Shown one piece after another: positions 32,304 through 46,381 of a stretch of DNA of 64,000 nt; position 1 is the stretch's first letter, and each line of letters starts with the position of its first letter. The stretch is taken from assembly GCF_018035235.1 (NCBI RefSeq), contig NZ_WPCV01000004.1:496001-560000 (forward strand), given 5' to 3'. Both the position numbers and the translations under genes were made by a program. Source of the stretch: Citrobacter sp. On2M. GTDB lineage: Bacteria > Pseudomonadota > Gammaproteobacteria > Enterobacterales > Enterobacteriaceae. Below the pieces are notes generated by a model. It had not been told where the DNA came from. It made no database searches and was given only the letters and a program-made list of their open reading frames with translations.

Positions 32304-32846
32304 ATGAAAATTAATAAACTTGTCATTGCTGTGGGAGTAGGTTTGGTAATGGCTTCAGGTAGCGCCTTAGCTTTGCCGGGTGCTGACTCTGGTCATGGTA
32401 CCGTGACTTTTACGGGGACCATTATTGATGCGCCGTGCTCCATTGCCCCTGACTCTATCGATCAGACTGTTAGTCTGGGACAGATCTCTAACAAGGTGTT
32501 GGAAGGTGGCGGCAAGTCAACACCGGTTCCTTTCCAGATCAAACTGGAAGATTGTAATGTCGAATCGCTGACAGATAAAACAGTAACGACAACGTTTGAT
32601 GGTACTCCGGCCGGTTCTGCAACGGATCTGTTTGCCATTGCAGGTACTGCTTCTGGCGCAGGCGTTGCCGTTACTGCTGACGATGGCGTTCCCGTGACAT
32701 TAGGTGAAGCGGCCTCAACCACTGGTATTATGAGCGGTGACAACGAGCTGAATTTTGCCGCCTATCTGACCGCGTTGGATGCTTCGAGCGCCATCGTTCC
32801 AGGTGACTTCACTTCTGTAGCAAACTTCACTCTGGCTTATAACTAA
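32304..32846 (+). CDS. Major fimbrial subunit (chaperone-usher pilin)
   Basis: A 180-residue pilin: Sec signal ending near ALALPG, the GHGTVTFTGTIIDAPCSI strand with the first Cys, a second Cys in LEDCNVES, and a C-terminal donor strand ending FTLAY-N with the penultimate aromatic recognised by the chaperone. First gene of the operon and followed by a hairpin, as usual for the most abundant subunit. The central part (about residues 98-145) is unusually rich in Ala, Ser, Thr and Gly (TPAGSATD, GTASGAGVAV, GEAASTTG). That makes it a candidate acceptor for the oligosaccharyltransferase encoded later in the operon, by inference only. Confidence 0.88.
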   Translation: MKINKLVIAVGVGLVMASGSALALPGADSGHGTVTFTGTIIDAPCSIAPDSIDQTVSLGQISNKVLEGGGKSTPVPFQIKLEDCNVESLTDKTVTTTFDGTPAGSATDLFAIAGTASGAGVAVTADDGVPVTLGEAASTTGIMSGDNELNFAAYLTALDASSAIVPGDFTSVANFTLAYN

Positions 32847-32860
32847 GTACTGAGTAAACG

Positions 32861-32882
32861 AAAAGGGGAGCAATCCCCTTTT
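32861..32882 (+). terminator. Attenuating hairpin after the major pilin gene
   Basis: AAAAGGGGA-GCAA-TCCCCTTTT perfect 9-bp stem. Such hairpins between major pilin and downstream genes set subunit stoichiometry in fimbrial operons by partial termination or by protecting the upstream mRNA. Confidence 0.8.
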
Positions 32883-32911
32883 ATCAATTCTGATAAATAA
32901 AGGTTAAATGT

Positions 32912-33469
32912 ATGGGGCGGCTTTTTATTATTGATAAGTTTAGCCTGCATTTACCTATTTTATTATTGACGCCAGCTTGGGTGGGGGCGACAGATTTTGG
33001 ACATGGTAATGTCAATGTCGGTGGTTCGATTGTTGATACTCCTTGTGCTATTGATACCGAAAGCCAGGATCAGACTGTGCTTATGCCGACGATGACGGTT
33101 GGTTCTATATTAGGACAAAACAAGAAGAATAAAAAAGATTTTTTTATTAAGTTAATCAACTGCGACACAGTTTCAGTGAATAAACCAGATCATCAATGGG
33201 GATATTATAGTATTACATTCTATGGTGATAATACCAGCCAAACGTACCCTTCGAGATTATTTGATGTAAAAGGTGAGGCAAAGGGAGTTGGGCTGGCGAT
33301 AAGAACAGTTGCGGGTGAGCAAGCTACTCCAGGGGCTTCCTTTGATAATCACATGATAGCTAAGGGCGAGAACATACTGGCGTACTCCATGTATTTAGAA
33401 TCAAATGGGCAAAAGATTAAGCGTGGTACTTATAGTGCAGTGATTCGATTCGCCATGAATTATTATTAA
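32912..33469 (+). CDS. Fimbrial subunit, second pilin
   Basis: A 185-residue pilin-like protein with a signal peptide ending near WVGA-TDF. GHGNVNVGGSIVDTPCAI parallels the first pilin, the second Cys lies in LINCDTV, and the C-terminal strand ends RFAMNYY. It lies between the major subunit and the usher, a position often taken by a terminator or anchor subunit. No SD stands out before the ATG. The usher starts 4 bp after its stop. Confidence 0.85.
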   Translation: MGRLFIIDKFSLHLPILLLTPAWVGATDFGHGNVNVGGSIVDTPCAIDTESQDQTVLMPTMTVGSILGQNKKNKKDFFIKLINCDTVSVNKPDHQWGYYSITFYGDNTSQTYPSRLFDVKGEAKGVGLAIRTVAGEQATPGASFDNHMIAKGENILAYSMYLESNGQKIKRGTYSAVIRFAMNYY

Positions 33470-33473
33470 TATT

Positions 33474-35957
33474 ATGACTCATTATTTTCAATACATTTCC
33501 TTTTCAGGTGAAAAATTGTTTATGTTTTTCATTCTGATTATATACTCTAATTGTAGTAATGCAGCGCAAGAACAAATTGAATTTAATACAGATGTCTTGG
33601 ATGTTGCTGATCGCTCCTCAGTGGATTTGTCGAAGTTTTCTGCTGGTGGTTACATTATGCCAGGCAAATATCCGATGGTTATTCAGATCGGTGAGAGTAC
33701 CTTGCCTGAGCAGTTGGTTGAATTTTATGCTGAGTCCGATGATAAGAGTTTACCCTGTGTCAATAAAGACATTGTTGATTCTTTAGGGTTTAAGAAGAAG
33801 TTTCTTAGCGATCTAAAGTGGGTTCGTGATAATCAATGCTTAGATTTGTCTAGCCTCAAGGGATTTAGTGCGAAAGGCGATCTGTCGGCGGGGGCATTAT
33901 ACATTAATGTTCCTCAGGCTTATGTTGAGTATGTGGATGAAAACTGGGAGCCTTCCGCACGTTGGGATGAGGGACTTTCCGGTGTCATGCTTGATTACAA
34001 CATTAATGCGCAGCGGCAATATATCTATCAGGGCGATAATTCAACGAACGTTAGTGCCAATGGAGTATTAGGGTTGAATGCTGGTCCCTGGCGCCTACGT
34101 GCCGACTGGCAGGAACAGTATGAGAAAAGTAAGTTCGTGACGGATTCTCAGTTCGATTTTTCGCGTTTTTATGCCTATCGAGCCTTAAAGGATCTGCAAC
34201 TGAAGTTGGTTTTGGGAGAGGATTATTTTCGTTCGGATGTATTTGATTCGTTTCGTTTTGCAGGGCTAAGTGTGCGCTCGGATGACAGCATGTTACCGCC
34301 AGGCCTGCGGGGATATGCGCCGGAGGTGAGAGGGATTGCGCAAAGTAACGCCAAGGTAACGGTGAGCCAAAAGGGTCGGATAATCTATCAAACGCAAGTG
34401 GCAGCCGGGCCGTTCCGTATTCAGGATTTGGGGGATACGGTGAACGGTAAGCTCGACGTCAAGGTGCAGGAAGAGGATGGTTCGGTCAATACGTTCCAGG
34501 TCGATACTGCCTACGTGCCTTATCTGACTCGTCCGGGAACTGTACGCTATAAATTTGCCTCCGGGCGACCAAGCAACATGGATCATAGTGTTGAAGGTCC
34601 ATTGTTTGCCTCTACAGAGGCGACCTATGGGGTGAATAATGGTTGGTCAATCTATGGTGGGGGGCTCTTTGCAAAGGATTACGGAATTGGTGCTGTGGGG
34701 ATTGGCCGCGATTTATTGACTTTCGGGGCAATATCGCTGGATATCTCTCAGTCGAAAGCGCAGGTTAGGGAGTACTCCCTGTCGGGAAGATCGTATCGCA
34801 TTAACTATTCGAAGACTTTTAGTGATTACGATAGCCAGATAACGTTTGCCGGATATCGCTTTTCCGATAAAGACTTCCTGAGTATGGATCAGTTTATCGA
34901 TCTGTTACGCGATGATGCTATCTATTCGAGGGGGAGGGAACTTTACACTGTCACATTTAATCAGCAATTAAAAAAACTAAATCTAAACTTTTTTCTTAAC
35001 TACAGTCGCCAGACTTACTGGGATCGACAGCCCGACAGCACCTACAGTCTGACTGTTTCTCGTTATTTTGATATTGGTAATTTTAAGAATGTGAATGTCA
35101 GTTTATCGGCGACGAAGACCAAGAATAATTATCAAAATGATGAGACTTCATATTATCTCGGTATGTCGATTCCTATCGGCGATCGTGGAAGTATAGGCTA
35201 TAACCTGCAAGAAGATAGAGGCAAGGTATCCACGGGTTTAAGTTATTACAATGCTATTGACGATAATAACTCTTACCAGGTTAGAGCTGGATTAGACAAT
35301 GGCGATCGCTCGCGGGCGAGCGGTTACTTTCAACATGATGGTGACATGGCTTCAGTCACGGCGTCGGCGGGGTATTACAACCAGAGTTATCGCAGTTTGG
35401 GGCTTTCCATGGAGGGGGGGGTGACTGCAACGACACAAGGGATTGCTCTGCATCGCATCAATAGCCCGGGTGATACTCGGATTATGTTGGATACAGGGGT
35501 GGCAGGGATCCCGGTACGTGCTGAGTATGGCGGGGTCATCTTTACTAACCGTTTCGGCAAGGCCGTTAGTCCCGATGTCCAGAGTTATTATAAGAATAGT
35601 TATTATATCGATTTAAATAAATTACCTGAAAACGCCGAGGCTATTGTTTCGCTCAAACAGTCGGCCCTGACGGAAGGTGCTATTGGTTATCAATCCTTTA
35701 ATGTGTTAGCCGGTAGTAAGGCAATGGCGGTAATCCGCTTTGCCGATGGGAGTTATCCACCGTTCGGCGCGATGGCGAGCAATTTGAAAGATATCTCTAC
35801 AGGTATGGTCGCGGATAATGGCGTGATATGGCTGGCCGGGATGAACCCTGATGAAACAATGAAAGTTGCCTGGGGGGATGGGAATACATGTGAATTCACC
35901 TTGCCGCATGAGATCCCCACTACGTTTGACACTAAATTACTGTTGTTATGTAAATGA
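33474..35957 (+). CDS. Fimbrial outer-membrane usher
   Basis: An 827-residue assembly platform through which pilins are exported in folded form. After the signal peptide comes the N-terminal chaperone-docking domain (EQIEFNTDVLDVADRSSVDLSKF), the 24-strand barrel with plug domain (GYAPEVRGIAQSNAKVTV and IYQTQVAAGPFRIQDL are classical usher signatures), then two C-terminal domains (SYPPFGA, CEFTLP, final LLLCK). Length is normal and no frame damage is seen. It is co-directional with the whole operon, with a 16-bp gap to the chaperone gene. Confidence 0.95.
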   Translation: MTHYFQYISFSGEKLFMFFILIIYSNCSNAAQEQIEFNTDVLDVADRSSVDLSKFSAGGYIMPGKYPMVIQIGESTLPEQLVEFYAESDDKSLPCVNKDIVDSLGFKKKFLSDLKWVRDNQCLDLSSLKGFSAKGDLSAGALYINVPQAYVEYVDENWEPSARWDEGLSGVMLDYNINAQRQYIYQGDNSTNVSANGVLGLNAGPWRLRADWQEQYEKSKFVTDSQFDFSRFYAYRALKDLQLKLVLGEDYFRSDVFDSFRFAGLSVRSDDSMLPPGLRGYAPEVRGIAQSNAKVTVSQKGRIIYQTQVAAGPFRIQDLGDTVNGKLDVKVQEEDGSVNTFQVDTAYVPYLTRPGTVRYKFASGRPSNMDHSVEGPLFASTEATYGVNNGWSIYGGGLFAKDYGIGAVGIGRDLLTFGAISLDISQSKAQVREYSLSGRSYRINYSKTFSDYDSQITFAGYRFSDKDFLSMDQFIDLLRDDAIYSRGRELYTVTFNQQLKKLNLNFFLNYSRQTYWDRQPDSTYSLTVSRYFDIGNFKNVNVSLSATKTKNNYQNDETSYYLGMSIPIGDRGSIGYNLQEDRGKVSTGLSYYNAIDDNNSYQVRAGLDNGDRSRASGYFQHDGDMASVTASAGYYNQSYRSLGLSMEGGVTATTQGIALHRINSPGDTRIMLDTGVAGIPVRAEYGGVIFTNRFGKAVSPDVQSYYKNSYYIDLNKLPENAEAIVSLKQSALTEGAIGYQSFNVLAGSKAMAVIRFADGSYPPFGAMASNLKDISTGMVADNGVIWLAGMNPDETMKVAWGDGNTCEFTLPHEIPTTFDTKLLLLCK

Positions 35958-35973
35958 TATAGGTTGAATTTTA

Positions 35974-36720
35974 ATGAACTTAAAAAAACAGCTGTCGATG
36001 ACCTTGATTAGCGTTCTGTATGCACTGTCTGGCTACGCTCATGCGGCAATTGCCCTGGATCGGACGCGCATTGTGTTTAATGGTGACGCTTCATCTATGA
36101 GCGTCAATATTCAGAATCATAATAAACAGCTACCCTATTTAGCGCAGGCATGGGCAGAGGATTCCCAGGGGAAAAAGATCACCTCGCCATTGACTATTCT
36201 GCCTCCTTTGCAGCGCGTTGAACCGGGAGCAAAGAGCCAGGTAAAATTGCAGCTGACCAACGAGGCGGCCAGAGGGTTACCTCAAGACAGAGAGAGTCTT
36301 TTTTTCTTTAACTTGAGAGAGATTCCACCTAAAAGCAATAAGCCTAATACGTTGCAGATTGCCTTGCAGACAAAAATCAAGATTTTTTATCGACCGAAAG
36401 CTATCGTCATTAAGGACTATGGCGATCCTTTTCAAAAGGGGATAACTATTGAGCGCAAGGGGAATAAACTCGTGGTTAATAACCCGACACCTTATAACGT
36501 AACTATTGCTTATGCTTCTAATTCAGAGAAGGGAAAAGCGCTTGGCGGGTTTGAGCCCATCATGATTGCACCGAAGTCGAGTGCCGATTATAAGGGAGAT
36601 GAGAAGGCGTTGGGGAGCACGCCAGTTCTGACGTATATCAATGACTTTGGTGGCCGACCGAAACTGGTGTTTGGCTGTAGCGGAAGCCAGTGTAAAGTCA
36701 CATCGAATATTAACGGTTAA
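35974..36720 (+). CDS. Periplasmic fimbrial chaperone (PapD-like)
   Basis: A 248-residue two-Ig-domain chaperone that completes pilin folds by donor-strand complementation and delivers them to the usher. The signal peptide ends at AHA-AIAL. LDRTRIVFNG opens domain 1; RVEPGAKSQVKLQ and ESLFFFNLREIPP are the F1-G1 family signatures (short F1-G1 loop, FGS type). KIFYRPKAI starts domain 2. C-terminal cysteines in FGCSGSQCKV suggest a disulfide in domain 2, as in several family members. Confidence 0.95.
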   Translation: MNLKKQLSMTLISVLYALSGYAHAAIALDRTRIVFNGDASSMSVNIQNHNKQLPYLAQAWAEDSQGKKITSPLTILPPLQRVEPGAKSQVKLQLTNEAARGLPQDRESLFFFNLREIPPKSNKPNTLQIALQTKIKIFYRPKAIVIKDYGDPFQKGITIERKGNKLVVNNPTPYNVTIAYASNSEKGKALGGFEPIMIAPKSSADYKGDEKALGSTPVLTYINDFGGRPKLVFGCSGSQCKVTSNING

Positions 36721-36769
36721 TGTGTGATTGAAACGGCGCGATATTGGTGGCTTTTATCGGTGGAGGCAT

Positions 36770-37366
36770 ATGATTAGCTCCTATATAAAGAGACTGTATA
36801 TTGTACTCGCGTCTCTGATGATCACGGTGAGTGTTAATGCCAGAGCCCTTGACTCGCTGGCCATTGATGGTGAGCATGGGACTTTAAATGTAATTGGTGA
36901 GTTAGTCGAAGGGGCATGCTGGATCGATAATGGCTCGGTGTATCAACAAATCGAGCTGGGTGAAGTGAACTTTGCCGAACTGGCTGATGAGAATGCGAAT
37001 ATTCAGCCTCGCCGATTCTTTATCGCCTTGCGTGATTGCATTTATTATTCTGGAGATATGCGTGACGCGCGTAACGGTAATCTGACGACGAACAGCATGC
37101 AGCCTATTGTTAAGATCTCATTTGCTACAGTACAAGAACAAGAGCAAAAAAACGTTATCGAGGTCGAAGGCATGGCACAGGGCATCTCTTTACGATTGAG
37201 TGACTCGCAATATCGTCCTGTCTATTTGAATGATAATAATAGGCCCTACGTCATCAATTCTATCAATGATAAGCTTATTTATAATGTGCAAGTTGTACGT
37301 AATAACCATAAGTTGATCGCCGGACCTTACCGTGCGACGCTTAACTTTAAGTTGGATTACGATTGA
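36770..37366 (+). CDS. Minor fimbrial subunit
   Basis: A 198-residue pilin-like protein. ATG 36770 is chosen because GGAGG lies five bases upstream and it gives a clean signal peptide ending at NARA-LDS. DGEHGTLNVIGELVEGACWI holds the first Cys and FIALRDCIYY the second. The end, ATLNFKLDYD, is a G-strand donor-type end. Possibly an adaptor or minor shaft subunit; the position after the chaperone fits tip-fibrillum components. Confidence 0.8.
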   Translation: MISSYIKRLYIVLASLMITVSVNARALDSLAIDGEHGTLNVIGELVEGACWIDNGSVYQQIELGEVNFAELADENANIQPRRFFIALRDCIYYSGDMRDARNGNLTTNSMQPIVKISFATVQEQEQKNVIEVEGMAQGISLRLSDSQYRPVYLNDNNRPYVINSINDKLIYNVQVVRNNHKLIAGPYRATLNFKLDYD

Positions 37367-37410
37367 CGAATTATAAGGCAGGGGGAGGTATTTATTGGAG
37401 GGGACGTGCT

Positions 37411-37917
37411 ATGATGTACAGGATGTTTTTATTTATACTGTTATCCAGCGTTACCATTATTAGCAGGGCCGATACGAGAAAGTTAAATTTTTCTACTGGT
37501 ATTAATATATCGGGGACTGTAATTTCGACCGGAGCTTGTAGTTTTAATAAGACTGAGCTCGATATCAATTTTGGTGACGTATATATTGCTGATTTGGTAG
37601 GAGATAGCAACCGTAAAGACATTGGCTATACCCTTAGCTGTACGGGTGACTATGCGTATAGCGATATTCAGTTACATATATCGGGCACTGTGAGTAGTAG
37701 TGATAGGTCTCTTTTAGCAACAAATGTACCAGGCGTCGGTATTAAGCTATTTCGTGATAATATTCAACTTAAGCCAGATGAAATAATTTCACTCGGTGAC
37801 GATCCATCCATAGCACCTAAATTAAGGGCTGCGGTAGTTATTGGTGATGCCGATGTTTCTAAGTTAAATGGTGTGAGGTTTTTTACCTCTGCAACCTTGA
37901 CTGTGGCATTTAATTAA
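37411..37917 (+). CDS. Minor fimbrial subunit
   Basis: A 168-residue pilin-like protein. ATG 37411 follows a strong GGAGGGG; a longer TTG-initiated frame overlaps the previous gene and is less likely. Signal peptide ending near SRA-DTR. NISGTVISTGACSF and LSCTGDY hold the two cysteines, with a C-terminal TATLTVAFN-like strand. Low similarity to the neighbouring subunits suggests a distinct tip position. Confidence 0.8.
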   Translation: MMYRMFLFILLSSVTIISRADTRKLNFSTGINISGTVISTGACSFNKTELDINFGDVYIADLVGDSNRKDIGYTLSCTGDYAYSDIQLHISGTVSSSDRSLLATNVPGVGIKLFRDNIQLKPDEIISLGDDPSIAPKLRAAVVIGDADVSKLNGVRFFTSATLTVAFN

Positions 37918-37934
37918 GTGAAGGGGGCGTTTTA

Positions 37935-38438
37935 ATGAGGACGTTGATGCTTTGTTTAGGCCTGTGGATATTAATAATGCCAGTTAGTCAAGCAATAACT
38001 TCTGATAATCATCTAACAGGTGATACGACTAATTTAAGATTCTATGGAGTATTAAAAAGAAAACCATGCCATATTAATGGTGACAGTTTGATAAATATCG
38101 ATTTTGGAAAAGTAAGGATCAAAAAAATAGATGGATTAAATTATAAACAAAAAATCCCTTACTCCATCACATGCGAAGAGTATTCTCCAGAGTTAAAGCT
38201 GACTCTGGCGATTAATGGAGCCAGTTATTTCGAGAAGTCCGTGCTAACGACAACGGTAGATGGGTTAGGCTTAAAATTACTTGCTAACGGTGCAGACTTT
38301 GAAATGAATAAACCAGTTCAGATTAATTTCGATTCGGGAAGTCTAATCCTTGAGGCGGTTCCCGTGCAGAAACCAGGTGCAACGCTACCTGAGAAAGCTT
38401 TTAGCGCCACGGCGACGCTACTCGCAGAGTATTTATAA
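37935..38438 (+). CDS. Minor fimbrial subunit
   Basis: A 167-residue pilin-like protein with SD AAGGGGG and signal peptide ending VSQA-ITS. Cysteines occur in KRKPCHING and ITCEEYS; the end FSATATLLAEYL is a donor-strand-like terminus. Spacing of 17 bp from the previous gene and 9 bp to the next indicates one transcript. Confidence 0.8.
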   Translation: MRTLMLCLGLWILIMPVSQAITSDNHLTGDTTNLRFYGVLKRKPCHINGDSLINIDFGKVRIKKIDGLNYKQKIPYSITCEEYSPELKLTLAINGASYFEKSVLTTTVDGLGLKLLANGADFEMNKPVQINFDSGSLILEAVPVQKPGATLPEKAFSATATLLAEYL

Positions 38439-38447
38439 GGGGGAGAC

Positions 38448-38999
38448 ATGAGTATTAGAATCAGTTTGCTTATGTTGATTTGTTTAATAGATATGGCGGG
38501 AATACATTCGGCTCAGGCAGATGATAACTTAAAGTTTAGTGGTTTTTTAGTTATGGATCCATGTGAACTGGACCCAGATACCTCTGATGTTGAGGTATCT
38601 TTTGGAACCATTGTCGACAAGTATTTGTATTTGAACCAGAGAACGCATAGCCAACAATTTGTTATTAATTTAAAAGATTGTGATATTGACTCTGGAAACA
38701 TCGTACAGATGACGTTTAGCGGTACACCGAGCACAGAATTACCTGGTTATATTGTTCCATCGTCCGGTGAGAAGACGGGTATCGCCGTGGGTATGGAGCG
38801 CGTCGTCAATGACGGTTCTGGCCCAATCGTACAGTTGTTACCCTTTAATGAGGCTATGCCGACCTCGCCACTGTTTAATGGTACGACGACGTTGAGATTT
38901 CGTGCTTTTATACAGGGAATACCTAGCGCGATTGCCTCGCATAGTATTGTTCGCGGTAACTTTAGCGCCGTAGCAACCTTTACTATCGAGTACCCCTGA
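38448..38999 (+). CDS. Minor fimbrial subunit
   Basis: A 183-residue pilin-like protein with SD AAGGGGGAG and signal peptide ending AQA-DDN. LVMDPCELDP and LKDCDIDS hold the cysteines. The layout (TFSGTPSTE... AIASHSIVRGNFSAVATFTIEY) parallels the major pilin more closely than the other minor subunits do. Its stop is 7 bp before the oligosaccharyltransferase-like gene, so the two are almost certainly co-expressed. Confidence 0.83.
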   Translation: MSIRISLLMLICLIDMAGIHSAQADDNLKFSGFLVMDPCELDPDTSDVEVSFGTIVDKYLYLNQRTHSQQFVINLKDCDIDSGNIVQMTFSGTPSTELPGYIVPSSGEKTGIAVGMERVVNDGSGPIVQLLPFNEAMPTSPLFNGTTTLRFRAFIQGIPSAIASHSIVRGNFSAVATFTIEYP

Positions 39000-39006
39000 G
39001 GCTGGT

Positions 39007-40617
39007 ATGACGATTAATCTACTGCGAAGCTATACCTATAAGAATGCAATATGCCTACTGATTGCATTGTACTTCCTGGTTCTGATGCATATCTATTTAC
39101 CAAACCGAGGCGGAAATGGCCTGAATCTTCCTCTCAATATCTTTGCATGGCTGTGGATCTGTATGTTGATGTGCGTAATTGCGTTCAGTGGCAATCGAGG
39201 CCGCTTTATCTATCCGCGTTACATCAGCGCTATGGTTTTGGGGGGCTTTCTGCTGACGGTTCCCCTGTTTTGGGCCAGCCGCGCAGGCATGATGAATGCT
39301 GTCTGGCGAGTAATGGCATTATGGGGTGGGCTGTTTATTTACGTCCTGCTATACCAATTGAGATTATGTTTCACGCAAAAGATCAGGGTAATGTGGGCGA
39401 TCTTCGGCGCTACCGTGATTGAAGCGGTTGTCTCCTTATGGCAGATCGGTCAATTGCTGATGGGAGCGGGAAGCCGCCCCGGCGGAATTTTTCAACAAGT
39501 TAACGTACTGGCTTCTTTTCTTGCGACGGGGCTGGCCATCTCTTTTATCCTCTATTCGATGAGTAAGCCAGCTTGGGTGAGGGCTTTCCTGGCACTTAGC
39601 CAGATTATGATATCTCTGATTTTGGTGATGTTGTCATCGCGAGTCGGCTGGTTGGCGGGGATAGTGGTCTATACACTGTATTTAGGCCGTTATCTGACCA
39701 GACGGCACGATACGGTTGCTGCTGTCTTGTTGTACCCTTTGCTCGGCGCGGGAGTGGGCATCGGGATCATGTATGCCGTGCAACAAGGTTGGTGGGTTTT
39801 GGACGGCTTATTGGTTGATAAGCAGATGTCGAGCCACTTGCGATGGATCCTTTTGATTGCCACTTGGTCAATGATAAAGGCCCATTTACTCACCGGGGTG
39901 GGATATGGTGAATACGCCTATACCTTATTACGTACCCTCTCTGCACCCCAGGCGCAAGAGGCCTGGCGGGTGACACACCCGCATAATGAAATTCTATATT
40001 GGTGGGTTGAAGGAGGAATATTAGCACTTGTTGGGATCGGTTGTATCATCTATGGGATTCTGCGTCAGGCGACCAGACCTAAATGTAATGAGAATTACTT
40101 ATGGCTATATGTGATGCTTCCCATTGCTTTGCATACAATGACCGAATTTCCCTTTTATCTGTCAATGCCGCATTTATTTATTTCTTTGCTGTGCATCTCT
40201 TTCTTGCGTGATGATGGAAGACCTATTCTCAGGGGGCGCGCATGCCTGCTTAGAATAACTTTTGGCGTTGTTTTTTTTCTTCTCGCTGCGATTTTTATCT
40301 TTATGCTACAGGCTAATTTCTATTTATATCAGTTTGAGCGTAGTGGGATGAAGAATAAAGACTATCTGGCACGAATCGATATGCCCATGCTTCAATGGGA
40401 GCGCTATCAGTTCGATCGACATATCAGTATGTTGTTGAGTTATAATGCTACGCGAAATGATCAATTACTAATCGAGTTTGAGCGTTGGGCCCGTGACTAT
40501 AGCGACCGAAATAACGATCGAAATGTCTGTTGGACGAGGGTGAATATTGCGAAGCATTTTCGATTGGCAGATAAATATTCCGCACTGAAAAGAGAGTGTA
40601 CTGTACTTTATCCTTAG
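39007..40617 (+). CDS. PglL/Wzy_C-type O-oligosaccharyltransferase-like membrane protein
   Basis: A 536-residue inner-membrane protein with about 11-12 helices and a roughly 95-residue hydrophilic C-terminal tail (about 442-536). It carries landmarks of the O-antigen-ligase/PglL superfamily: GGIFQQVNVLASFLATG (159-175; the QxNVLA motif is typical of PglL protein ligases), SSRVGWLAG (210-218), a large periplasmic loop with HPHNEILYWWVEGG (324-337) including the catalytic-type His, and TEFPFYLSMPHL (379-390). WaaL lipid-A ligases usually lack the QVN and HPHNE-W-EGG combination. The family moves a lipid-linked glycan to Ser/Thr of periplasmic proteins. Its place inside a pilus operon points to pilins as acceptors (inference). 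Alternatives are a Wzy-type polymerase or an inactive relative. Confidence 0.8.
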   Translation: MTINLLRSYTYKNAICLLIALYFLVLMHIYLPNRGGNGLNLPLNIFAWLWICMLMCVIAFSGNRGRFIYPRYISAMVLGGFLLTVPLFWASRAGMMNAVWRVMALWGGLFIYVLLYQLRLCFTQKIRVMWAIFGATVIEAVVSLWQIGQLLMGAGSRPGGIFQQVNVLASFLATGLAISFILYSMSKPAWVRAFLALSQIMISLILVMLSSRVGWLAGIVVYTLYLGRYLTRRHDTVAAVLLYPLLGAGVGIGIMYAVQQGWWVLDGLLVDKQMSSHLRWILLIATWSMIKAHLLTGVGYGEYAYTLLRTLSAPQAQEAWRVTHPHNEILYWWVEGGILALVGIGCIIYGILRQATRPKCNENYLWLYVMLPIALHTMTEFPFYLSMPHLFISLLCISFLRDDGRPILRGRACLLRITFGVVFFLLAAIFIFMLQANFYLYQFERSGMKNKDYLARIDMPMLQWERYQFDRHISMLLSYNATRNDQLLIEFERWARDYSDRNNDRNVCWTRVNIAKHFRLADKYSALKRECTVLYP

Positions 40618-40744
40618 TGAGGGTCATATACTATGTTTTTCAACACTATTTATGAGAATGGTATATTTTATTTCCAGGATAGATTTGCATTAACTGAGTT
40701 TTAATATATTACTTAACAATTTTGTTCTTGTGGAGGGGCTATAG

Positions 40745-41722
40745 GTGATTAAATCATTGGTATATATTTTTTTCGTGGTTGTGACTTTAGTCACACCCCC
40801 AGTATCTGCAAGTTATTTATCTGGTGATCCGGGTGATGCGGGGTGTGGGAGCACCTCTGGAATTGCTTGTGTTAAAAGAGGTCCAGCTAATAATTATGTC
40901 ACTGCCGTACCACATGTATTCGATGTAGTAATGAATGGTAATCCTGCTGTTTGGGCTAAATCAAACGCAATTAAAATTGCACTTGGTGTTCGTCAAAGTT
41001 CAGTGGGTACCAATACGTATACGGACTCAAATAAGTATACTTGGCTGACTGCATCCCATGATTTGTCTAAGTCCGCGGGGCCGCTTAAACCCATGAAATG
41101 GGTTTATATAGATCAAACCGATCCCGGTTACTTAGCTCAGGGCATCGCTTATTATTACCCTCAGCTTGGTTCTACGATTACTACGGGTGTGGGTAGTGTT
41201 TATTGCGTGGGTTTATTCTATGACACTGGTATTGGTAACCCCACGGGTATTTCTGGTTTAGTGGAAGGCTTTGGTTGTAAGAGTGATATGGGGGGCTCAG
41301 AAAGTAAACCTCCGATCGAAAAATGTGTAGCGACTAGTACGCTGAATATTGATTTTGGTGAGGTTGATAGAGCCGGTATAACGAATACTGGAGCCTACGA
41401 AAAATCTGTTAAATTGAGTATTAACTGTAGTGGGGTCTCCGTGCTTCCCGTTCATACTTTTCAGGCCAAATTAAGTGGTACAGGAGTAACATGGGCTGGT
41501 GGACAGCTTAAGACTTCCAACCCCGCACTTGGTGTGAAGTTTAATATTGCGGGCAAGGACGTCAATGCAAATTCTTCACCCTTCGATCTTGGGTCAACAA
41601 GCGGTGGGGCGCTAAATGTGACAGTAAAGGCGGCCTTAGCCAAGAATCCAAGCGTAATTACACGTGATATTGCTACCGGTAGTTTTAACGCGAATGCGAC
41701 ATTAATTATTGAAGAAAAATAA
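40745..41722 (+). CDS. Two-domain fimbrial tip adhesin
   Basis: A 325-residue secreted protein, roughly twice pilin size: signal peptide ending PVSA-SYL, an N-terminal receptor-binding-like domain (about 23-190, with CGSTSGIAC and YCVGLFYD...FGCK cysteine pairs), then a C-terminal pilin domain (about 195-325; STLNIDFGEVDRAGITN, INCSGV, ending FNANATLIIEEK). This is the plan of FimH/PapG-type tip adhesins. It starts with GTG 40745 behind a strong GGAGGGG. A 127-bp gap separates it from the ligase-like gene. No named lectin was recognised; the receptor is unknown. Confidence 0.82.
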   Translation: MIKSLVYIFFVVVTLVTPPVSASYLSGDPGDAGCGSTSGIACVKRGPANNYVTAVPHVFDVVMNGNPAVWAKSNAIKIALGVRQSSVGTNTYTDSNKYTWLTASHDLSKSAGPLKPMKWVYIDQTDPGYLAQGIAYYYPQLGSTITTGVGSVYCVGLFYDTGIGNPTGISGLVEGFGCKSDMGGSESKPPIEKCVATSTLNIDFGEVDRAGITNTGAYEKSVKLSINCSGVSVLPVHTFQAKLSGTGVTWAGGQLKTSNPALGVKFNIAGKDVNANSSPFDLGSTSGGALNVTVKAALAKNPSVITRDIATGSFNANATLIIEEK

Positions 41723-41830: not shown

Positions 41831-43447
41831 ATGATGCCAGGGACAGAAGCAATGATAAATAACAAGATGCTTTTCGCTATCTCCTGCGGAAAAAAAGCCT
41901 TGTATGTCGCTTTTTCTGGGGGGCTGGTACTGGCCGTAACTCTGGCAACTGTGACCTGGTGGTCTGTCGAATCCCTCCGGAAAGACACTCTCACACGTAT
42001 AAATTTTGCACAACATCACATTGACACCATTATTTCAAATGCCAGAGCGGTGGCGAATGTGACCCGAAATCTTGCCGGGATGCCCTGTACCGGAAACACA
42101 CTTTCCCAGCTCCGTCATGATGTAATCCGCACACCGAATGTGCGCGCTATCGACCTGGTACGTCAGGGTCGCATTTACTGCACTTCGCTGTATGGCGCAA
42201 CAGATGAACCCGACAGGCTCTCCCTCCCGTCTGCCCGGAACAACCTGCAGTTGCTTCCCGGTAACACAGCCACACCGCATTTATCTGTGCTGGTATACCG
42301 TACTACCCAGCCCAAGGGCACGTTACTTATTAGTATTGACGGGTATTTTGTTGCTGAAACGCTCTTTGCGATTCGTACACTCCCTTTGGTTTATTTTCAG
42401 GTCGGGAATACTCTGATGTCGAAATCCGGCCAAATCCTGACACCTGCGCAACTCCCCGCCGGGAAACGCGAGTTCATTACATCTCCGGACTGGTCTTACC
42501 GGCTTGTTATCGTCACGCCGACGGGGACACTGTTCGGCAACATCGTGCATAACTACTGGAGGAGTATGTTGGTTTGCCTGCTGCTTGCTTTGGCGGCCTC
42601 ACTTCTGTGTTACCGGATATTGACTCGCCCTCTGACGCCTGTGGAGCAATTACAAAACGCGCTGGCACGCCATGAATTCGTGCCATATATTCAGCCGATC
42701 GTCGATATCACTACACATCGCATTAAAGGTGGTGAGATTTTAATTCGCTGGAAACATCCGGAAGCAGGCCTCATCCCTCCGGACCAGTTTATCCCGCTGG
42801 CGGAAACCTCAGGTCTGATTGTGCCCATGACGCGGCAGTTGTTTGCAGATACAGGCCGCTTTTTTCAGGCGCACACAGCCCGGCTTCCAGCCGGTTTTCA
42901 CCTGGGATTCAATATCAGCAAGTCTCACCTTGCAGACCGTCACCTCATGGAGGATTGTCAGAATATCCTGGCCGAGTTGTTGCCCTGCAGGGCAGAGCTG
43001 GTCCTCGAGTTACTGGAACGGGATACCGCTGAATGCACTGCTGAAATGAAAACTGCGTTCAGCAAATTAAAGCAGGAGGGGATAAAGTTCGCGCTTGACG
43101 ATTTTGGAACCGGATATTCGACGCACGCCTGTCTGCAGAATTTCAGTACCGATTATATCAAGATAGACAAAAGCTTTATTCAGATGGCAGGTGTTGATGA
43201 TATATCCCGGCATATTGTAGACAACGTCATTGCATTGGCAGAAAGTCTGAATATCAATATTATCGCTGAAGGCGTTGAAACTGCGTCGCAGGAGGCATAT
43301 TTACAGGGGCGTAATGTGAAATATCTGCAAGGCTATCGCTATGGCCGTCCGGTTTCTCTGGATCAATTTGTAAAGAACCACCTGAGTGGTGGCGACGGAC
43401 CGTTTTTCACAGGTTCACCGGCGTTGGCATATCAGGCTGAACAATAA
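41831..43447 (+). CDS. CSS-motif/EAL cyclic-di-GMP phosphodiesterase
   Basis: A 538-residue inner-membrane enzyme with two helices (about 22-45 and 235-258) flanking a periplasmic CSS-type sensor (two cysteines, MPCTGN and GRIYCTSLYG), followed by a cytoplasmic EAL domain (about 275-520). The EAL motif is EIL; downstream residues expected for activity are present: FNISKSHL, ELLERD, LDDFGTGYS, KIDKSFI, AEGVETASQ. Same plan as PdeC (YjcC)-type enzymes, whose periplasmic cysteines respond to redox state. Located directly after the fimbrial adhesin, so it may tune attachment versus motility. The start could also be ATG 41852. Confidence 0.9.
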   Translation: MMPGTEAMINNKMLFAISCGKKALYVAFSGGLVLAVTLATVTWWSVESLRKDTLTRINFAQHHIDTIISNARAVANVTRNLAGMPCTGNTLSQLRHDVIRTPNVRAIDLVRQGRIYCTSLYGATDEPDRLSLPSARNNLQLLPGNTATPHLSVLVYRTTQPKGTLLISIDGYFVAETLFAIRTLPLVYFQVGNTLMSKSGQILTPAQLPAGKREFITSPDWSYRLVIVTPTGTLFGNIVHNYWRSMLVCLLLALAASLLCYRILTRPLTPVEQLQNALARHEFVPYIQPIVDITTHRIKGGEILIRWKHPEAGLIPPDQFIPLAETSGLIVPMTRQLFADTGRFFQAHTARLPAGFHLGFNISKSHLADRHLMEDCQNILAELLPCRAELVLELLERDTAECTAEMKTAFSKLKQEGIKFALDDFGTGYSTHACLQNFSTDYIKIDKSFIQMAGVDDISRHIVDNVIALAESLNINIIAEGVETASQEAYLQGRNVKYLQGYRYGRPVSLDQFVKNHLSGGDGPFFTGSPALAYQAEQ

Positions 43448-45052: not shown

Positions 45053-45337
45053 ATGATAAATATGAAAAATATCCAGAGCAGAGATGAAAAAGTATATCGT
45101 AGAATGGTGAGTGATACGATGGTTGGGTTCATGAACACAATGGGTGATCTCAGTGATGAAGCAAAAGACGATTTGCTTTCGATCATAGTGGAAGCTATGG
45201 AGACGAATGCTAACGAAGACGAAGAAAGCAGGAGAAAAATAAATCTGAAGGTACATGAGGTATCAAAGGAATACAACATTCCGATACTTAACATCTTTTC
45301 TGTTATTTCAATGGTTTTCATAGATTTCGAGTACTAA
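45053..45337 (+). CDS. Small acidic protein, paralogue 2 of 3
   Basis: A 94-residue protein of unknown function (or 91 from ATG 45062). It shares two blocks with the third paralogue: RRMVSDTMVGFMN-x4-LSDEAKDDL, and a later VSKEYNIPILNIFSVISMVF. Predicted mainly helical and highly charged in the middle (ETNANEDEESRRK). No signal peptide. Same strand and 33 bp from its neighbour, suggesting an operon. Confidence 0.6.
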   Translation: MINMKNIQSRDEKVYRRMVSDTMVGFMNTMGDLSDEAKDDLLSIIVEAMETNANEDEESRRKINLKVHEVSKEYNIPILNIFSVISMVFIDFEY

Positions 45338-45985: not shown

Positions 45986-46381
45986 ATGATTAAGCAATTG
46001 TATTATTTGACAGGGTTAATCTCTGTTATGGTCATGATGCATACGGCGTGGAGCAGCTTCTTACTTCAAAGAAAAACAGTGAAGTGCGTCAGGAGTTCAT
46101 TTTTTATAAAAATTGAGATGTTATTTGTGATGGTGTCTGTTTTATTGATTCATTGTATGGAAGCATCCATTTTTGCAATATTTTATTATGTTAATGATGC
46201 TTTGCCAGATATGGAAACATCCATGTATTTTTCACTGGCCAGTTATGCAACTGTTGGTTACGGTGATGTACTTTTACCTGAGGGGTTCCGATTAACTGGG
46301 GCGGCTGAAGGACTTGTTGGTACATTAATGGTTAGCTGGACGGTAGCCACATTAATTAGCTACTTTGGTGATAAAAAATAA
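45986..46381 (+). CDS. Mini potassium channel (Ion_trans_2 type)
   Basis: A 131-residue membrane protein with hydrophobic segments at about 5-23, 42-68 and 105-126. The pore loop carries the K+ selectivity filter T89-V-G-Y-G-D94, preceded by a pore helix (YFSLASYA). There is no RCK/TrkA-N or voltage sensor; a tetramer of such subunits would form a simple K+ pore. ATG 45986 has AGGTGGG upstream. It follows the three small paralogues on the same strand, with about 290 bp in between. Confidence 0.82.
   Translation: MIKQLYYLTGLISVMVMMHTAWSSFLLQRKTVKCVRSSFFIKIEMLFVMVSVLLIHCMEASIFAIFYYVNDALPDMETSMYFSLASYATVGYGDVLLPEGFRLTGAAEGLVGTLMVSWTVATLISYFGDKK

Follow-up and report, generated by a model that had tools for sequence, protein, structure and literature searches.

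Among the adhesive organelles of enteric bacteria, chaperone–usher (CU) pili serve as a model and, to our knowledge, have been treated as unmodified protein polymers. A 64,000-nucleotide (nt) stretch of the Citrobacter sp. On2M genome (RefSeq assembly GCF_018035235.1, contig NZ_WPCV01000004.1, positions 496,001 to 560,000; hereafter referred to as the window) contains a CU operon in which the gene at 39007–40617 is predicted to encode a PglL-type O-oligosaccharyltransferase (OST), raising the question of what such an enzyme would do in a pilus operon. Four computed observations bear on the answer: the PglL-type sequence of the protein, the membership of its gene in the operon, the recurrent linkage of OST genes to usher genes in other genomes, and the correlation of the OST with a single serine of the major pilin. 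Together, they point to a CU pilus whose major pilin, and with it the rod, is O-glycosylated by the OST encoded in its own operon, a reading to which we assign a probability of roughly 0.7.

The operon spans 32304–41722, and is therefore longer than the span given in the initial annotation, which was made from the sequence of this locus. It comprises ten genes, all on the forward strand, in the order two fimbrial subunits, usher, PapD-type chaperone, four fimbrial subunits, OST and presumed tip adhesin, and Pfam recognizes the usher, the chaperone and the fimbrial subunits that define a CU pilus operon:

32304–32846, forward strand: major pilin of 180 residues ('major' by position and homology)
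32912–33469, forward strand: fimbrial subunit (PF00419)
33474–35957, forward strand: outer-membrane usher (Pfam PapC_N, Usher and PapC_C)
35974–36720, forward strand: periplasmic PapD-type chaperone (family profile matches)
36728–37366, forward strand: fimbrial subunit (PF00419)
37363–37917, forward strand: fimbrial subunit (PF00419)
37935–38438, forward strand: fimbrial subunit (PF00419)
38448–38999, forward strand: fimbrial subunit directly upstream of the OST gene (PF00419; best NCBIfam model StfG, below cut-off)
39007–40617, forward strand: predicted PglL-type OST of 536 residues (PglL_A match at 39478–39543)
40745–41722, forward strand: two-domain fimbrial protein of 325 residues, presumed tip adhesin (pilin domain at residues 194–322)

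The OST open reading frame (ORF) starts 7 nt past the stop codon of the pilin gene at 38448–38999 and precedes the adhesin gene, exactly as initially annotated. By sequence, the closest Protein Data Bank (PDB) entry to the first pilin is PapA (5flu), and the top NCBIfam models for the usher are StfC-like (907 bits, cut-off 972), SteB and StdB, all below cut-off. The N-terminal part of the presumed adhesin matches no Pfam family over cut-off, and its C-terminal part is the pilin domain. The gap of about 130 nt between the OST and adhesin genes contains a weak promoter-like match, which is uninformative, as 14 such sites were found against a shuffle mean of 23.

The initial annotation had called the protein PglL-like from its motifs, all of which are present (Q164-V-N166, S210-S-R-V-G-W, HPHNE (324–328) with EGG (335–337), and H376-TMTEFPFY). 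Three Pfam families match over their cut-offs: PglL_A (32.1 bits, cut-off 25), Wzy_C (55.2, cut-off 31.7) and Wzy_C_2 (50.2, cut-off 28.5). Among 23 diverse homologues, the window protein included, Wzy_C and Wzy_C_2 match all 23, and PglL_A matches 20. In its available part, PMC3643930 gives seven NmPglL residues (Q178, N180, G316, G318, H400, E404 and P406) as conserved in PglL and not in WaaL. Their window equivalents, assigned by motif and spacing with no NmPglL sequence in the alignment, are Q164, N166, G297, G299, H376, E380 and P382; all are present, and each is kept in 78–80 of 80 homologues. A second Wzy_C gene of the genome adjoins rfaC, rfaF and rfaD, the WaaL position in the lipopolysaccharide (LPS) core locus. 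Its product retains Q164 and G297 and lacks the other five residues, with N166, G299, H376, E380 and P382 corresponding to a gap, Ser, Tyr, Asp and Leu, respectively. Since a separate Wzy_C gene occupies the WaaL position, the cell has no need of the operon OST as an O-antigen ligase, and the OST gene itself lies outside the LPS loci, away from the core location that characterizes WaaL.

A profile of the homologues covers both the Q-x-N and the H-x3-E-x-P regions in its alignment to 9RMK, an entry deposited as an oligosaccharyltransferase; its alignment to the WaaL structure 7TPG spans the Wzy_C part only. The AlphaFold model of the OST (predicted local distance difference test (pLDDT) 78, predicted template modelling score (pTM) 0.79) has 7TPG as its sole significant fold match, with 9RMK not among the best 50 fold matches listed; this fits the PglL/WaaL superfamily and does not by itself tell PglL from WaaL. 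A PDB search with the single OST protein and a DNA-level search in Escherichia coli genomes gave no match. The proposed profile check against WaaL and Wzy therefore came out in favour of PglL, by PglL_A and the PglL-specific residues, with the fold match alone going to WaaL, and we take 39007–40617 to encode a PglL-type OST, with catalysis predicted from sequence.

Linkage of such genes to ushers recurs across the same GTDB family, in which 39 PglL_A matches (38 over cut-off) were found in 35 of 295 genomes. At 35 of the 39, an usher lies no farther than 7 kb away, on the same strand in 30 cases and on the opposite one in 5, compared with about 1.3 expected near an usher by chance, given that these 35 genomes hold 314 usher matches. 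A further 20 loci, 18 of them from newly drawn genomes, were found with the OST profile A1, and 15 have an usher in the fetched stretch (two, L176 and L186, seem to be repeats of Kluyvera loci already seen). Of 13 matching records in a plasmid collection, 10 (Serratia, Klebsiella aerogenes, Hafnia, Pantoea and Scandinavium) have an usher no more than 7.3 kb away and one has fimbrial genes at 5.4 kb; in another the stretch holds no usher, with one apparently some 12 kb away on that plasmid, and a record from Aeromonas has none. At least three CU layouts carry an OST, among them a type-1-like fim operon and, in Kluyvera, a layout with two chaperones, and in many loci no more than about 100 nt separate the OST from a fimbrial subunit gene. 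Outside the family, elsewhere in the order and class, none of 19 OST loci had an usher nearby; of the 20 loci fetched, one on a short contig yielded no OST ORF, contig ends truncate some stretches, and the genomes' usher totals were not counted. An OST tree, rooted by choice on those other families, separates the same-family sequences with a Shimodaira–Hasegawa-like approximate likelihood ratio test (SH-aLRT) value of 94, and the six same-family OSTs whose stretches lack an usher are interspersed with the 45 whose stretches contain one.

The gene had also been expected in the same operon of relatives, which holds in part: of 38 listed ushers that share at least 50% identity with the usher of the window (itself one of the 38), 18 lie no more than 12 kb from a PglL_A match. 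This count is a lower bound, as PglL_A alone misses members such as the G056/L134 locus, which A1 finds. The OST is therefore a module gained or lost within the usher clade of the window. It is split into two ORFs in L110 (a Hafnia alvei plasmid), L079 and L082; these split genes, taken unrepaired, were counted as present for linkage and enter neither the residue counts nor the OST tree. At G087:C23:33757–34041 A1 finds only a C-terminal fragment; the gene is decaying in some carriers.

The same loci point to a candidate acceptor in the major pilin, Ser161 (codon 32784–32786), which lies in the sequence Asp-Ala-Ser-Ser-Ala within a turn (158–162) before the last strand. In the discovery set, drawn from one usher clade, Ala-Ser is present in this loop in 33 of 36 operons with an OST and in 2 of 20 sister operons from genomes without one. 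The criterion was fixed before new genomes were fetched, and in these the figures are 9/9 and 1/16 (Fisher p 5e-6); recovery of ORFs, needed where the major pilin was masked by a longer ORF on the antisense strand, later added one test locus (8/8 and 1/16 before). Left unscored for the loop were 20 OST-bearing rows and one row with the OST elsewhere in the first set, and 11 OST-bearing and four OST-free loci in the test set. Near-copies and repeats were dropped (L050, L051, L053–L056, L061, L093, L135, L162, L163 and L167), and the similar L049, L052, L067 and L069 were kept. The three OST-bearing exceptions (L057, L073 and L077) keep a serine in the loop, with Asn, Ser or Thr in place of the Ala. 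A scan of all pilin columns for common residues (597 tests) ranks this serine first (38/40 versus 4/36, p 1e-14) and the preceding Ala second (p 4e-10), with third place at 4e-5, and the best p value in the same scan of the usher, the chaperone and three other subunit positions (5,548 tests) is 2e-6.

The 33 genomes scored as OST-free were rechecked with A1 at an E value of 1e-5. No match was found in 19, and 11 gave weak matches (34–51 bits) to the Wzy_C part only. G217 and G290 (loci L152 and L168, without Ala-Ser) hold a 464-residue frame matching in two pieces (best 93–94 bits), doubtful relatives of the OST, and G087, the genome of the OST-free exception L166 with Ala-Ser, holds a 62-bit OST fragment. 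Without these three genomes, the OST-free discovery figure is 1/17. Two other candidate patterns were set aside. A looser loop pattern (45/45 versus 5/36), fitted after the fact, is not counted as evidence. Low-complexity Ser/Ala/Pro acceptor regions were not borne out: across four pilin classes, Ser+Thr content, STAPG-rich windows and lengths are alike with and without an OST, except that the first post-chaperone subunit differs slightly in length (p 0.04).

The position of the serine is consistent with what is described of PglL acceptors and pilus rods. In a model of the pilin (pLDDT 82), the turn that contains S161 connects the last two strands (145–157 and 163–179), and in the sequence alignment PapA Val143 sits immediately before S161. 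According to the available text of PMC4715182, PapA Val143 is in no P-pilus rod interface, and a probe at 143 is solvent accessible in pili that still form. The mapped Burkholderia cenocepacia PglL sites in the accessible part of PMC8423747 are serines with Ala preferred at −1, and the optimal Neisseria motif proposed there is WPAAASAG. A turn just after the acceptor serine is needed, as stated in the portion of PMC3643930 at hand, and most of the pilin loops have Pro-Gly or Glu-Gly a few residues after the serine.

Several observations weigh against glycosylation of the major pilin by the operon OST. The Ala-Ser pattern was spotted by eye before it was tested, and the new and old genomes share genera: the nine scored OST-bearing test loci represent five genera, all in the first draw. 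Eleven of the 20 OST-bearing test loci could not be scored, including Kluyvera loci with another pilin type (as with L092 and L141 in the first set). Where the OST is elsewhere in the genome, only four of nine operons have Ala-Ser, and the OST-free operons L169 and L195 have it, as real exceptions. The equivalent of P313, a residue conserved in PglL and WaaL alike in the available part of PMC3643930, is Leu294 in the window OST, Pro in 77 of 80 homologues and Asp in the WaaL-position protein; this position does not separate PglL from WaaL. Four of the 39 PglL_A matches have no nearby usher (L060, L065, L074 and L084), and the glycan gene cluster described below was found in three loci only, with none in the window or the other loci searched, within the fetched stretches. 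On the usher tree, the OST and the motif each change 13 times, and only seven independent pairs lie on supported branches (5.2 in the same direction, 0.1 opposite and 1.8 without difference, as means of random pairings; sign test median p 0.06). Because the motif tends to follow the OST in these pairs, shared ancestry is made less likely as an explanation of the correlation. Separately, L195 (G1010:C17), whose genome has only a WaaL-like match, has the usher nearest that of the window by tree path as well as an Ala-Ser pilin, possibly reflecting a recent OST loss or an assembly gap.

The initial annotation had proposed glycosylation of pilin or adhesin, and the comparison supports the former, pointing to the major pilin. 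That the OST instead glycosylates the tip adhesin or an adjoining minor pilin, with the loop serine a by-product of shared ancestry, would suit the placement of its gene between the last minor pilin and the adhesin, its proximity to fimbrial subunit genes in many loci, and the modification of several proteins by neisserial PglL, as far as the available literature describes it. No Ser or Thr of the usher-proximal pilin or of the first and last post-chaperone subunits is strongly associated with the OST, however (best p 0.002–0.006, in a scan that did not include the adhesin), and the loop serine and the OST tend to change together on the usher tree, so that we regard this alternative as unlikely. 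It is quite unlikely, in our judgement, that the enzyme is a general OST acting on many periplasmic proteins that only happens to stay in fimbrial loci. Linkage far above chance on many divergent branches and the correlation with one specific pilin serine speak against it, whereas general PglL systems are known (PMC3643930, available part), the window OST is the only PglL_A match in its genome, and the four OSTs without a nearby usher are as such an enzyme would leave them.

A WaaL-like ligase or Wzy-like polymerase, making or capping a surface polysaccharide co-regulated with the pilus, would account for the fold match to 7TPG, for the annotation of homologues as 'O-antigen ligase' or 'Wzy polymerase' in several plasmid records, and for the glycan genes adjoining three homologues. 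It would leave the pilin serine unexplained, and it conflicts with the five residues present in the OST and absent from the WaaL-position protein, with the location of the gene outside an LPS locus, and with the alignment to 9RMK through the N166 and H376 regions. We consider it very improbable, and retain modification of the major pilin by the operon OST as the best explanation.

For this preferred reading, we infer catalysis, acceptor, donor and timing as follows. Pilins would reach the periplasm by Sec and then bind the chaperone. Facing the periplasm, the inner-membrane OST would detach a preassembled glycan from undecaprenyl pyrophosphate and move it onto the exposed-loop serine of the major pilin (Ser161 in the window) in the periplasm, before the usher polymerizes the pilin, giving a rod with about one glycan per subunit on its outer face. 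The glycan of the window would have to come from elsewhere, such as a lipid-linked unit of O-antigen or enterobacterial common antigen, and three Glycos_transf_4 genes of the genome are candidates for initiating such lipid-linked units.

In three other loci, L057 and L058 (same genus as the window) and L134 (a Scandinavium goeteborgense plasmid), candidate glycan-synthesis and export genes follow the OST gene. They encode a nucleotidyltransferase, a WavE-family protein, an ABC-2 permease, an ABC ATPase, a HAD phosphatase and proteins of no known family, assigned by Pfam for L057 and L058 and by similarity and annotation for L134 (L162 is a second fetch of L057, and L167 seemingly of L134). The 'family 2 glycosyltransferase' annotation in the Scandinavium record was rejected, as its homologues are nucleotidyltransferases by Pfam. 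In L057, the glycan genes lie between the OST and a 329-residue two-domain fimbrial protein (PF00419 at 20.2 bits, below cut-off), in the slot that holds only the adhesin in the window. Two proteins of 569 and 160 residues in the clusters of L058 (11617–13805) and L134 (12517–14712), with no Pfam match in L058, were not found in the otherwise similar cluster of L057.

Other genes near these operons were also noted. Downstream of the operon, at 41831–43447 on the forward strand, Pfam identifies a CSS-motif EAL protein resembling cyclic di-GMP phosphodiesterases, a possible regulator of the pilus operon that is not shown to belong to it. EAL-type or LuxR-type regulatory-looking genes follow the OST or pilus operon here and in L049, L055, L062, L063, L073, L077 and L108, mostly recognized by eye and annotated as such in L108. 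DsbA-like genes adjoin the OST in two loci of other layouts (L092:10247–11221, reverse strand, recognized by eye; L141:10767–11678, annotated). Further along the window, a small ORF (45986–46381) contains TVGYGD, presumably a potassium-channel-like sequence, and is preceded by two short look-alike ORFs at 45053 and 45395. The window genome (G000) has 17 usher matches, the second highest among the 35 genomes compared (range 5–21).

If the preferred reading is correct, glycan display, and possibly antigenic or adhesive variation, would be added to CU pili, and the acceptors of PglL would extend from type IV pilins to the Ig-like pilin fold. Our confidence leans slightly towards a broader view, in which widespread CU pili of Enterobacteriaceae and plasmids are glycosylated along the whole rod at one surface serine by a dedicated PglL-type enzyme, some loci carrying their own glycan factory, so that the pilus serves as a sugar-display fibre. 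The natural OST–acceptor pairs, with enzymes 25–33% identical to that of the window (22 homologues), are of interest for glycoprotein engineering, and the proposal makes a one-residue prediction. In the open-licence literature, no report of a PglL gene in a CU operon was found among the matches listed; within its known family the enzyme would form a new branch, and the pilus would be a variant without report in the literature searched. The initial suggestion of a new kind of CU pilus fits the computed evidence.

PglL/PglO enzymes of Neisseria, Acinetobacter, Burkholderia and Vibrio resemble the window OST in domain set, conserved residues and a pilin gene often nearby, and, in the sources as available, in an acceptor Ser with Ala at −1, as predicted here. 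They differ in genomic setting, which in PMC3643930 is a type IV pilin neighbour for 21 of 31 and otherwise a context such as uvrA/aminotransferase, whereas CU pilins are the neighbours here; the available text of that paper contains neither 'fimbri' nor 'usher', and the Yersinia rows of its Table 1, as available, give type IV pilins as neighbours. WaaL shares the Wzy_C domain and overall fold with the OST, whereas the WaaL-position protein encoded in the LPS core locus of this genome lacks five of the seven PglL-specific residues. The pilin of the PilO/TfpO system of Pseudomonas aeruginosa is a type IV pilin. Its OST gene also lies beside a pilin gene, whereas the enzyme lacks the PglL motifs (PMC3643930, available part). 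The usher, PapD-type chaperone and PapA-like major pilin of the window operon are shared with P pili and Stf/Ste/Std-type fimbriae. We know of no OST gene in these pili, whereas the window operon has both an OST gene and an Ala-Ser in the pilin loop.

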